Source: Rosettibacter firmus (GTDB taxonomy: Bacteria; Bacteroidota; Ignavibacteria; Ignavibacteriales; Melioribacteraceae). From it: 64,000 nt of DNA. Under the pieces are notes generated by a model that was not told the origin of the DNA, did not search any database, and saw only the letters and a list, made by a program, of their open reading frames with translations. This document shows, one piece after another, positions 30,114 to 33,553 of this stretch. Each line of letters begins with the position of its first letter. The first letter of the stretch is position 1. Both the position numbers and the translations under genes were made by a program. The stretch is from the NCBI RefSeq assembly GCF_036860695.1, contig NZ_JAYKGJ010000003.1:124001-188000 (forward strand), written 5' to 3'.

Positions 30114-31019
30114 ATGAACATTTTCGATTTAGCTATATCGTATACCTGGGAATATGATCAAGAATTTGTAGATCTTATTGAATTTATTTTCCAGAAAGAT
30201 GGACTCACAACTTTTGTTATCAGCACATATAATGTTTTTGAAGTAATTAATGCATTACAATCAAAACAACTTCACTTTCATTCATATTTGGATAGAGCAT
30301 CAGATGTAGATTCTGATTTTGAGCCAATTGCTACAATTTTATCAAAACGTAAATCTTACATAATCAATCCACATAAAAAAGTACACAGGTTCATTAATAA
30401 ATCATTCATGCATAAAGTACTATCGAAAAAAAATTTTAATCTACCAAAAACAATAATTCTTCCCCCTTATTATTACAATCATAGTATAAATATAAAACAA
30501 GAAGAACTTGATAAAATTGGTAATCCATTTATCATAAAGCCCGCAATTTATACAGGTGGCGGAGAAGGTGTTAAAATTGATGCAACAACAATCTATCAAA
30601 TACAAAAAGAAAGAATAAAAAATCAAACCGAAGAATATTTAATTCAGGAAAAAATACAACCTAAGATACTTGGTGGAAAAAGAGCATGGTTTAGAGTTTT
30701 CTGGGCATTTAATAAAGTAATTCCAACATGGTGGGATGACCAAACACACATTTATGAAACGATTAGCCATGAACAGATAAAAAAATATAATCTACATCAA
30801 CTTTATCGTATTACTAAAAGACTCTTTAAAATTACAAGAATAGATTATTTTTCTACTGAAATTGCTTTGAGTAAAAAAAACAAATTTGTATTGATTGATT
30901 ACATTAATGACCAATGTGATATGAGATTAAAATCCAATCACATAGATGGTGTGCCTGATGAAGTAGTTATTAATTTCATTGAACAGATGAAAAAGAAAGT
31001 TTTATTATTCAAAAAATAG
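30114..31019 (+). CDS. ATP-grasp-like protein of unknown function
   Basis: 301 residues. The ATP-grasp layout is visible: GNPFIIKPA (Lys142), the flexible glycine loop GGGEG at 148-152, YLIQEKI near 175-181 for adenine contacts, and IDYIND at 261-266 with Asp262 and Asn265 as likely metal ligands. The first 100 residues form a Rossmann-like pre-ATP-grasp domain. Such enzymes ligate a carboxylate to an amine or thiol, but the substrate is not evident, and no other biosynthetic genes adjoin. Its 3' end overlaps the 3' end of rsgA on the other strand by 15 nt. Confidence 0.6.
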   Translation: MNIFDLAISYTWEYDQEFVDLIEFIFQKDGLTTFVISTYNVFEVINALQSKQLHFHSYLDRASDVDSDFEPIATILSKRKSYIINPHKKVHRFINKSFMHKVLSKKNFNLPKTIILPPYYYNHSINIKQEELDKIGNPFIIKPAIYTGGGEGVKIDATTIYQIQKERIKNQTEEYLIQEKIQPKILGGKRAWFRVFWAFNKVIPTWWDDQTHIYETISHEQIKKYNLHQLYRITKRLFKITRIDYFSTEIALSKKNKFVLIDYINDQCDMRLKSNHIDGVPDEVVINFIEQMKKKVLLFKK

Positions 31020-31961
31020 ATCTTCTTCTATAGTACTTAATAAATTAATATAACTTTTATATCTCTCCTCGCTAATTTTTCCCTGATTACAAGCTTCTAC
31101 AACTGCACATCCCGGTTCGTGATTATGTGTACATGTATTAAACTTACAGTTATAAATATATTCCTTAAATTCGATGAAGTAGTGTGATAAATCCTCTTTC
31201 TTAATACCATATGGATCAATTTCTCTTATACCAGGACTATCTATTACAAATGTATTGTCATCAACTTTTTTCATAAGAACTGTAACTGTAGTATGTTTTC
31301 CTTTCAATGTATAATTACTAATTTCACCAACTTTAAGATTCAGTCCTGGATAGAGTTGATTCAGTAAACTTGATTTACCCACACCAGAATGTCCCCAGAA
31401 TAAATTGGAATTCCCCTGTAATCTATTTTTTAAATTTTCCAATCCATCTTTTGTAACCACACTAGTTTCAAAAACTTCATAACCAATTTCCTTGTAAAGA
31501 TTAACCCAGTAACTTCTATTATTTTCTTTATCAAGATCAATTTTATTTATAACAATTAATGGCACAACACCAGAACTTTCAGCAACAACAATCATTCTAT
31601 CGATTAATCTATTATTAAACTTTGGTTCAAGCCAGCTTGAAATTATTACCAGATTATCAACATTGGCAGCAATAATCTGCTCTAATCTTTCTCCTCTGAG
31701 ACTTGCACCCTTTATTCGTGGAGCTTTTCTAGAAATTTTATTTTTTCTTGGAAGTATATCTGTTATTAAACCTGTTCCATCACTATTTAGCTTAAATTCA
31801 ACATTATCTCCAACAGCTACAATATCGAGTGTAAGTAGTTTATCTTTTTTAATAGAAAATTCTTTTTGAAATTTACCTCTTAAAAAACATCTGATTTCTT
31901 TATTGTTTTCATCAAGAACATAATAGTTTTTACTCTCAATTTTGAATACTACTCCTTTAAT
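31005..31961 (-). CDS. rsgA: Ribosome small subunit-dependent GTPase A, apparent AUU start
   Basis: 318 residues when read from ATT at 31961. RsgA is a circularly permuted GTPase that checks late 30S maturation. The N-terminal OB domain begins (M)KGVVFKIESKNYYVLDE and includes RGKF and VAVGD; the GTPase motifs follow in permuted order, NKID at 139-142 (G4), GHSGVGKSS at 190-198 (G1) and DSPG at 241-244 (G3). The C-terminal zinc site uses Cys272, Cys277, His279 and Cys285. There is no ATG, GTG or TTG in frame from the upstream TAA until the ATG at 31595, which would remove the whole OB domain and cut into the GTPase. The ATT aligns with the family's initiator methionine and has AAGGAGGT 3 nt before it. 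Confidence 0.85.
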   Translation of the reverse strand: MKGVVFKIESKNYYVLDENNKEIRCFLRGKFQKEFSIKKDKLLTLDIVAVGDNVEFKLNSDGTGLITDILPRKNKISRKAPRIKGASLRGERLEQIIAANVDNLVIISSWLEPKFNNRLIDRMIVVAESSGVVPLIVINKIDLDKENNRSYWVNLYKEIGYEVFETSVVTKDGLENLKNRLQGNSNLFWGHSGVGKSSLLNQLYPGLNLKVGEISNYTLKGKHTTVTVLMKKVDDNTFVIDSPGIREIDPYGIKKEDLSHYFIEFKEYIYNCKFNTCTHNHEPGCAVVEACNQGKISEERYKSYINLLSTIEEDLFFE

Positions 31962-31964
31962 ATT

Positions 31965-31972
31965 ACCTCCTT
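31965..31972 (-). promoter_or_regulatory. Strong Shine-Dalgarno that fixes the AUU start of rsgA
   Basis: The minus strand reads AAGGAGGT over 31972-31965, a perfect 8-nt match to the anti-Shine-Dalgarno, followed by AAT and then ATT. An in-frame TAA overlaps its 5' edge, so initiation has to occur at or after this site. No ATG, GTG or TTG in any frame sits at the right distance to be the alternative. Confidence 0.8.
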
Positions 31973-32021
31973 AATTAATTTATTTTTATACACAAATCTA
32001 TTCTATCAATTATTTAAAAAC

Positions 32022-32051
32022 AAAAAGCATCTTATTTCTAAGATGCTTTTT
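32022..32051 (-). terminator. Rho-independent terminator after the OmpP1/FadL-like gene
   Basis: AAAAAGCATCTTA (32022-32034) pairs perfectly with TAAGATGCTTTTT (32039-32051) around a TTTC loop. Reading leftward (minus strand) the hairpin is followed by a second T-run, TTTTTGTTTTTAAATA, so it terminates the leftward transcript from 32082 and insulates rsgA from it. Confidence 0.8.
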
Positions 32052-32081: not shown

Positions 32082-33527
32082 TTAAAAATTATATCTTACA
32101 CCAAGAATAAAATTACTCCTTTCTATATCCTGATAAGTTCGTGATAGATTTGAACCATAATTATCTCCAATATCTTTCCACCAGCCATAAGCATATGCCA
32201 GATTAATAGATAAATTAGAACCTGGATTTAAACCAAGTCCCGCTGTAATAAATTTTTTATCAAAATCAGAAGGATCATCTTTATAAGGTGAAGGCAAAAG
32301 CATAAATCCACCACGGAATGCTACATTAACAAAAGGAATAATGTATTCAAAACCAGCATGTAAATTAATTACTTTCCTAAATAGCTCTTTAATATCCCGG
32401 TTATTGTTTTCAATATCTCGAATATCGAGACCGCTTTTAAATTCCATCTGGGTATAATCTATAAATTTTGCATCAAAGCTAACATTCAAATTATTTTCAT
32501 TAAAAGCTGCACCTAAAGATAATTCATAAGGTGTATTGATTTTATATTCGAGTTTATTTTCGATTGGTGGATCCAGGTAAAATCGTGTTTGAGCAAAATC
32601 GCTATACGCATCTACAAAATAAGTCTCTTTTATAGTATAAAATCTTGGGGTTTTAATTGAGAATCCAAAATTAAATACTTTATTAATTTTTGTTAATAAA
32701 CCTATATTCAAATTCCAACCACTGACATCCCATTTAATTATATCATTCATATAAAAAGTCTTAAAATCTCGCGAAGAAGGCTCTAAAGGATCAAGGAGCA
32801 AATTAGAACTATAATAATCATTAATATCATCTTCCCAGTATTGTCTATCCCGTCTGAAATCTCCTCCAATTACATTTAATGTTGCACCAACAAAAACATT
32901 CTCCTGAATTTCGAGTGCAGCAGAAAAAGACCAGTTATGCAAACCTCCGTCCTGAACAATTTTACCGCTTTGATTAAGTTTACCGTTAATAAGCGTTGTA
33001 TCATACAAATATTTATTATTTCTATCATAAACTGGATAGCTTAAAACTAATTTATAAGCAATATCATCATTATAATTTGTTAAATCCTGGATTAATGAAT
33101 TATTATTGGGATTGTACCCATTAAACTTCATTGTATAATTAAAATCTTTTTGCTGATTGTATCCAAATGCTAAAACAAAACTTCCTCTTATTGTTGGTAA
33201 TGGTAAAGCAAAACTCAATTCGCTAAGCTTTGTTATGTTATTTGAAAAGTCTTCCTTTCTATTAAAAAAGGTTGTAGAGTTAGAAAATGAATCATAAGAA
33301 AATGAAGCAGAAAATTCTGACTTTTTTATTAATCCTAAACCAGCTGGATTAAAAAGTGTAGCAGAAAAATCGTTACTCAATGCTGTATAAGCATTTCCCA
33401 TTGAAAGTGCTCTTGCACCTGTAATAATTTCTGGTTCTGTTAATCTTAATGCATCATTAAAATTTTGTGATAAGCAAAAATTGTAAGAAACTAAAATCAA
33501 AATTGTTACAAGGAACGTTTTTCTCAT
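32082..33527 (-). CDS. Outer-membrane protein of the OmpP1/FadL type
   Basis: 481 residues from the ATG at 33527, preferred over 33551 because GAGG lies 6 nt upstream and a clean signal peptide follows (RKTFLVTILILVSYNFCLSQ). The mature start GARALSMGNAYTALSNDFSA followed by LFNPAGLG is the hallmark of FadL/OmpP1-type barrels in this phylum, and the protein ends in aromatic strand ILGVRYNF. Such proteins form barrels that move hydrophobic compounds or serve as T9SS-related scaffolds. It lies directly behind the Tyr-rich lipoprotein gene (gap 0-26 nt depending on start), so they are cotranscribed. Confidence 0.8.
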   Translation of the reverse strand: MRKTFLVTILILVSYNFCLSQNFNDALRLTEPEIITGARALSMGNAYTALSNDFSATLFNPAGLGLIKKSEFSASFSYDSFSNSTTFFNRKEDFSNNITKLSELSFALPLPTIRGSFVLAFGYNQQKDFNYTMKFNGYNPNNNSLIQDLTNYNDDIAYKLVLSYPVYDRNNKYLYDTTLINGKLNQSGKIVQDGGLHNWSFSAALEIQENVFVGATLNVIGGDFRRDRQYWEDDINDYYSSNLLLDPLEPSSRDFKTFYMNDIIKWDVSGWNLNIGLLTKINKVFNFGFSIKTPRFYTIKETYFVDAYSDFAQTRFYLDPPIENKLEYKINTPYELSLGAAFNENNLNVSFDAKFIDYTQMEFKSGLDIRDIENNNRDIKELFRKVINLHAGFEYIIPFVNVAFRGGFMLLPSPYKDDPSDFDKKFITAGLGLNPGSNLSINLAYAYGWWKDIGDNYGSNLSRTYQDIERSNFILGVRYNF

Positions 33528-33553
33528 ATTAATCCTCAATAATTTTTTCATTA

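Follow-up and report, generated by a model that had tools for sequence, protein, structure and literature searches.

The rsgA locus and its reading frame

The window analyzed here is a 64,000-nucleotide stretch of the Rosettibacter firmus genome. Its minus strand carries a gene (31005..31961) that, by domain and motif tests, encodes RsgA (YjeQ/EngC), the small-subunit GTPase. Read from an ATT codon at 31959..31961, the coding sequence comprises 318 codons followed by a TAA stop (31007-31005). The predicted protein matched RsgA_N (PF16745) at residues 2-66, covering profile positions 1-54 of 54 (E 1.8e-8), so that the N-terminal OB domain is present, and RsgA_GTPase (PF03193) at residues 69-249 (E 2.1e-53). 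It scored 236 bits against TIGR00157, above the cut-off of 100, remained under the cut-offs of the other two RsgA models, NF008931 and NF008932, and aligned with PDB 1u0l (EngC/RsgA) across residues 2-308. On reading the protein, we found NKID, then GHSGVGKSS, then DSPG, and we take the order NKID, GxxxxGKS, DxPG to be the circularly permuted GTPase signature. The C-terminal part contains CKFNTCTHNHEPGC, which fits C-x4-C-x-H-x5-C, presumably the C-terminal zinc motif of RsgA (YjeQ/EngC). The nearest named records belong to Melioribacter, which NCBI places in the Ignavibacteriales. A second, RsgA-like paralogue acting as the real RsgA was considered and rejected, as the R. firmus genome yielded a single RsgA match. 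Many genomes of the order do carry a second RsgA-like protein (L152-L164; 30-38% identity, longer N-terminus, canonical start available), and all 13 of the paralogues examined have a canonical codon available at the aligned start or upstream of it.

An in-frame TAA (31971..31973) precedes the ATT with three intervening codons, GGA GGT AAT, none of them canonical. The original prediction had placed the first ATG, GTG or TTG of the frame at codon 123; the ORF list agrees, since the sole ORF listed in this frame with such a start runs from 31595 to 31005 (196 aa). The ATG at codon 123 (31593..31595) lies within the GTPase region and was rejected as the start. The RsgA_N and RsgA_GTPase matches indicate that the stretch ahead of it is real coding sequence with an OB domain, and a coding-potential scan ranked rsgA first among 1,284 genes for coding sequence ahead of the first canonical start, bearing out the view that everything upstream of 31595 is coding and that the OB domain is whole. 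The ATT lies behind the Shine-Dalgarno (SD) sequence AAGGAGGT (31965..31972), with a gap of 4 nt between GGAGG and the start, the ATT coming 3 nt past the T of GGAGGT.

Upstream of rsgA, on the same strand, lies a gene for an outer-membrane FadL/PorV-like protein (32082..33551), which was a neighbour in 46 of the 52 loci searched. A convergent, weakly ATP-grasp-like gene (PF14397, under cut-off) on the plus strand (30114..31019) was a neighbour in 37 of the 52, a set that includes one place twice, one fragment and some flanks too short to read; it and rsgA overlap by 15 nt at their 3′ ends. Ahead of rsgA on the minus strand, TAGATTTG (31993..32000) is a putative promoter that fits TAnnTTTG, which we take to be the Bacteroidota −7 motif, and 20 nt ahead of it a TTTG found by eye (32021..32024) is a putative −33 element. 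A hairpin, AAAAGCATCTTA-GAAA-TAAGATGCTTTT, followed by a run of T (32023..32050, minus strand, by eye), is the probable terminator of the upstream gene and adjoins the putative rsgA promoter. Visual inspection of 30 genomes showed similar hairpins in several, and in L006, L007 and L009 a −10-like TATTTT appeared, again by eye, inside the hairpin loop. A σ70-like pattern, TTGAC-N16-19-TAnnT, preceded rsgA in 39 of the 114 Ignavibacteriales genomes, compared with a mean of 1.5 and a maximum of 5 genomes in shuffles; in 38 of the 39 it lay 54-68 nt before the start. The window has TAGATTTG instead. As judged from these promoter positions, the rsgA leader would be about 20-30 nt long. Such a length would leave little room for a structured leader, which would make the start codon the obvious control point.

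Start codons of rsgA across the Ignavibacteriales

Matches to RsgA were found in 148 of 164 genomes of the order, some of them to a paralogue or fragment only. The rsgA starts were read in 114 genomes of the order, R. firmus included; left out were G002 (L003 and L056, a C-terminal fragment), L004 (same contig as L002), and L090 and L097 (duplicates of L044 and L054). The aligned start codon was ATT in 42, ATC in 30 and ATA in 29, so that 101 of the 114 have AUU, AUC or AUA (AUH), and ATG in none. The start alignment of relatives upheld the prediction of an AUU start behind a strong SD sequence. A sequencing error at the ATT of the window was rejected, because independent assemblies share the AUH codon. 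The remaining 13 genomes comprise one with ATA one codon earlier (L017), two of a single genus, g47, with GTC and GTT behind AGGTGA (L051 and L315), which are likewise non-canonical, seven with ATG one to four codons earlier (L021, L318, L044, L054, L296, L312 and L313), two with TTG one codon earlier (L110 and L330), and one divergent gene with ATG five codons earlier (L055). Within the 101, three genes (L040, L295 and L297) have an ATG immediately before the AUH codon and were scored as canonical on the RsgA tree. Since 10 of the 114 use ATG or TTG and these three have ATG directly before AUH, the order can evidently live without an AUH start of rsgA. No rsgA match was obtained from the five genomes searched of genus g39 (G041 and G283-G286), of which one is 98% complete; rsgA may have been lost there.

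The original prediction had treated ATG at the same place in related genomes as evidence against it. Within the order no genome has ATG in the start column, with L044 debatable because its ATG occupied that column in an earlier alignment and an alternative alignment is thus possible; the 10 genomes with ATG or TTG have it at shifted places. Outside the order, the nearest outgroup family of the same class (f13) does have ATG in 6 of 6 rsgA genes, only one of which is accompanied by a 4-nt SD match. In 75 of the 101 AUH genes, no in-frame ATG, GTG or TTG is present from the nearest upstream stop as far as codon +10, and in 41 of these 75 the upstream stop lies within 6 codons. An in-frame canonical codon occurs somewhere upstream, in some cases close by, in 25 of the 101. 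From −40 to +6 codons around the aligned start, a canonical codon is present in 45 of 46 loci of Bacteroidota outside the order, as against 25 of 101 within it. Taking frame and alignment together, we regard initiation of rsgA at AUH as almost certain.

To estimate how the start codon has changed, we used a quick RsgA tree built without the first alignment columns. In the AUH codon, the third position underwent about 37 changes among T, C and A and none to G, a count conditional on the exclusion of canonical-start rows. By contrast, 22 fourfold-degenerate columns in these genes showed 784 changes away from A, C or T, of which 202 (26%) went to G, so AUG, the best start codon, seems to be avoided at the rsgA start of this order. 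The probability of 0 in 37 is about 1.6e-5, or 1.7e-4 if the ATG of L044 is counted as one change to G. This pattern makes it a near certainty, as far as sequence comparison can tell, that selection has kept the AUH start of rsgA.

Of 101 AUH or GUY starts of rsgA, 97 were preceded by an SD match of 4 nt or more, compared with 5 of the 19 canonical starts when those of the outgroup are counted (Fisher p 4e-11, ignoring kinship); only four independent, well-supported pairs were available, and across these the association was not significant. The four non-canonical starts lacking such a match are those of L052, L292, L294 and L325. Spacing between SD and start was 4-6 nt in 81 of the 94 AUH genes with a match of at least 4 nt. 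For comparison with the 97 of 101, a match at least this long stands before 51% of the 732 genes predicted in the R. firmus genome. Searches for a 16S rRNA gene that would give the anti-SD 3′ end reported none in this genome or in three relatives; indirect support for the anti-SD in R. firmus comes from matches of at least 6 nt, which precede 11.7% of the 732 genes versus 0.5% of random places.

Start codons of infC, era and genes found by a genome scan

Two observations reject AUH as the ordinary start of this clade. The first is era, encoding another 30S-assembly GTPase, which starts with ATG at 29 and TTG at one of 30 loci read among the 58 genomes with era (a script count of 28 ATG, one GTG and one TTG was corrected at L205, where the GTG is internal and an ATG stands at the usual place). 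The second is a coding-potential scan for coding sequence ahead of the first canonical start, run on contig C1 and the window (together 1.65 Mb, or some 51% of the R. firmus genome, with 1,284 predicted genes). Only three genes clearly lacked a canonical start: rsgA (score 28.6, rank 1), a D-Ala-D-Ala-ligase-like gene (18.4) and infC, which encodes IF3 (16.8); the next score was 7.3. The scan was blind to rsgA and infC, and hence returned both a known AUH gene and rsgA from sequence alone.

The parallel with infC drawn in the original prediction extends to this order. Among 30 infC loci, read from the 55 genomes with infC, 23 have ATT, ATC or ATA with no canonical alternative; of the others, three have an upstream TTG, three were clipped by the search motif and one has neither. 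As would be expected of a gene of the infC type, rsgA combines an AUH codon without canonical alternative, a conserved codon class, avoidance of AUG and a strong SD sequence. In the outgroup family with ATG on rsgA, infC has AUH in 6 of 6; as this family already has AUH on infC, the AUH start of infC probably predates that of rsgA. Outside the class, in other Bacteroidota, the infC start seems to vary, with candidates ATG in L360, TTG GCA in L361 and ATA GCA in L362.

The D-Ala-D-Ala-ligase-like ATP-grasp gene (PF07478) lies on the plus strand of contig C1 at 646752-647834 (L197:6752-7834), with relatives at L333-L351. At 19 of 20 loci, the R. firmus one included, AUH occurs at the same codon behind an SD sequence (ATT 15, ATC 2, ATA 2); 7 of the 20 have no nearby canonical codon and 12 have both. 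This gene, too, seems from the alignment to start at AUH. A related ATP-grasp match begins close to its end.

A proposed role for the AUH start and its relation to known systems

From the reading frame, its conservation, the avoidance of AUG, the association with SD sequences and the codon class common to infC, all of which are read from the sequences, we infer initiation at AUU, dependence on IF3 and feedback from the 30S subunit. We propose that rsgA is translated from AUU by the ordinary initiator tRNA, positioned by the strong SD sequence on a leader that is probably short, and that across the order the start codon drifts among AUU, AUC and AUA while being held back from AUG. IF3 on a well-matured 30S subunit would reject AUH, and little RsgA would be made. 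When IF3 is short, or when a 30S subunit with a poorly folded decoding centre escapes discrimination, AUH would be accepted, more RsgA would be made and 30S maturation would be finished. The published basis, as given in the available text of the two reports concerned, is that IF3 represses starts other than ATG, GTG and TTG and that infC autoregulates through AUU (PMC5472188); that both RsgA and IF3 help to release RbfA from the mature 30S, IF3 freeing RbfA from mature and not from immature 30S; that RsgA and RbfA participate in decoding-centre folding; and that an hfq mutant defective in 30S maturation initiates at alternative start codons (PMC9032327). Together these facts suggest that RsgA output would follow a loss of discrimination, whether through low IF3 or immature 30S. 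We put at roughly 0.58 the probability that the AUH start has been kept in order to make RsgA synthesis depend on start-codon discrimination (IF3 and 30S quality). Control by IF3 and 30S quality, as for infC, would be the likeliest reason for the AUH codon, and the original prediction was reasonable in supposing a tie between rsgA synthesis and the level of IF3 or the state of ribosome assembly.

The main competitor to this sensing scheme is that RsgA must simply be scarce and that a weak AUH start is retained as a fixed brake without sensing, as for E. coli pcnB. It would account equally well for the avoidance of AUG and leave the same sequence traces, and the non-canonical starts of S. aureus ccpN and cvfC1 do lower yield, according to the available part of PMC13009471. 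However, pairing a strong SD sequence with a weak codon (97 of 101) would be an odd route to low output, for which a weak SD with UUG would do, and the codon class is common to infC in the same order, both being points of argument; we consider it a serious possibility, if short of even odds. Fixation of AUH without function, tolerated through a compensating SD sequence, fits the outgroup, where ATG mostly lacks an SD, and the order, where AUH mostly has one, which is the pattern of a compensated change. This account was already disfavoured by the lack of any change to G among the roughly 37 at the third base (P about 1.6e-5, or 1.7e-4 with L044; canonical-start rows excluded), and we judge it improbable.

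Least probable of all, to the point where we give it hardly any weight, is that rsgA truly starts at another place, whether at an upstream codon, at a downstream ATG or through a frameshift from another frame, or that the gene is broken. The 25 AUH genes with an upstream in-frame canonical codon speak for another start. Against it stand the window and 41 genomes with a near upstream stop (within 6 codons in the 41) and no canonical codon, the 4-6-nt distance from SD to AUH in 81 of 94, and the alignment of RsgA to RsgA_N and PDB 1u0l from residue 2 onwards; against a broken gene, the search listings report no stop within the rsgA matches of the order. By eye, no conserved out-of-frame ATG was noticed near the rsgA start in the start listings of the order.

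If the sensing scheme is extended to an AUH regulon of the Ignavibacteriales (IF3, RsgA, the D-Ala-D-Ala-ligase-like enzyme and possibly further genes outside the scanned half of the genome), the regulon would be a translation-quality sensor made of start codons only. We offer this extension tentatively and think it less likely than not; were it true, the output of the regulon would climb jointly when discrimination slackens, and an immature or IF3-free 30S would call for its own maturation factor. As a practical matter, annotation by the ATG/GTG/TTG rule is predicted to lose the OB domain of these rsgA genes or to miss their start.

Non-canonical AUH starts are known for only a handful of bacterial genes. 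E. coli pcnB is, like rsgA, a chromosomal gene with an AUU start, which its study reportedly described as a translational limitation by an inefficient start codon. No report of a non-AUG start of rsgA was found among the open-access papers searched, judged partly by titles and abstract openings. LepA, also a translational GTPase, needs a presumed AUU start for its full length in two species; the available part of that report (PMC1780047) names two genomes and does not mention conservation, compared with 101 of 114 for rsgA. Staphylococcus ccpN (AUA) and cvfC1 (AUU) have conserved non-canonical starts with extended SD sequences; they encode a metabolic regulator and a small protein, respectively, and, unlike rsgA, both were measured by Ribo-Ret and reporters, as the accessible text of PMC13009471 describes. 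The GUC and GUU codons behind AGGTGA in genus g47 recall Streptomyces sigR, whose conserved start (GTC in 32 of 34, GTT in two) stands behind a strong SD and is repressed by IF3; sigR encodes a stress sigma factor for which the IF3 effect was shown by experiment, according to the available text of PMC5472188. Conserved IF3-controlled non-canonical starts are thus already known from infC and sigR, and conserved non-canonical ones from ccpN and cvfC1, as far as the sources consulted describe them.

The closest likeness is to infC itself, which in E. coli, Streptomyces and S. aureus has AUU, AUC or AUA behind an SD sequence, as rsgA does here (available text of PMC5472188 and PMC13009471). The two would differ in their wiring, since infC encodes the discriminating factor and its feedback is direct, whereas that of rsgA would pass through IF3 or 30S maturation. 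Because rsgA shares the start class of infC, ribosome assembly and start-codon checking may be linked in this order, and a kept AUH codon on a 30S-assembly GTPase, next to an AUH infC in the same order, offers a testable case of start-codon discrimination regulating ribosome assembly.
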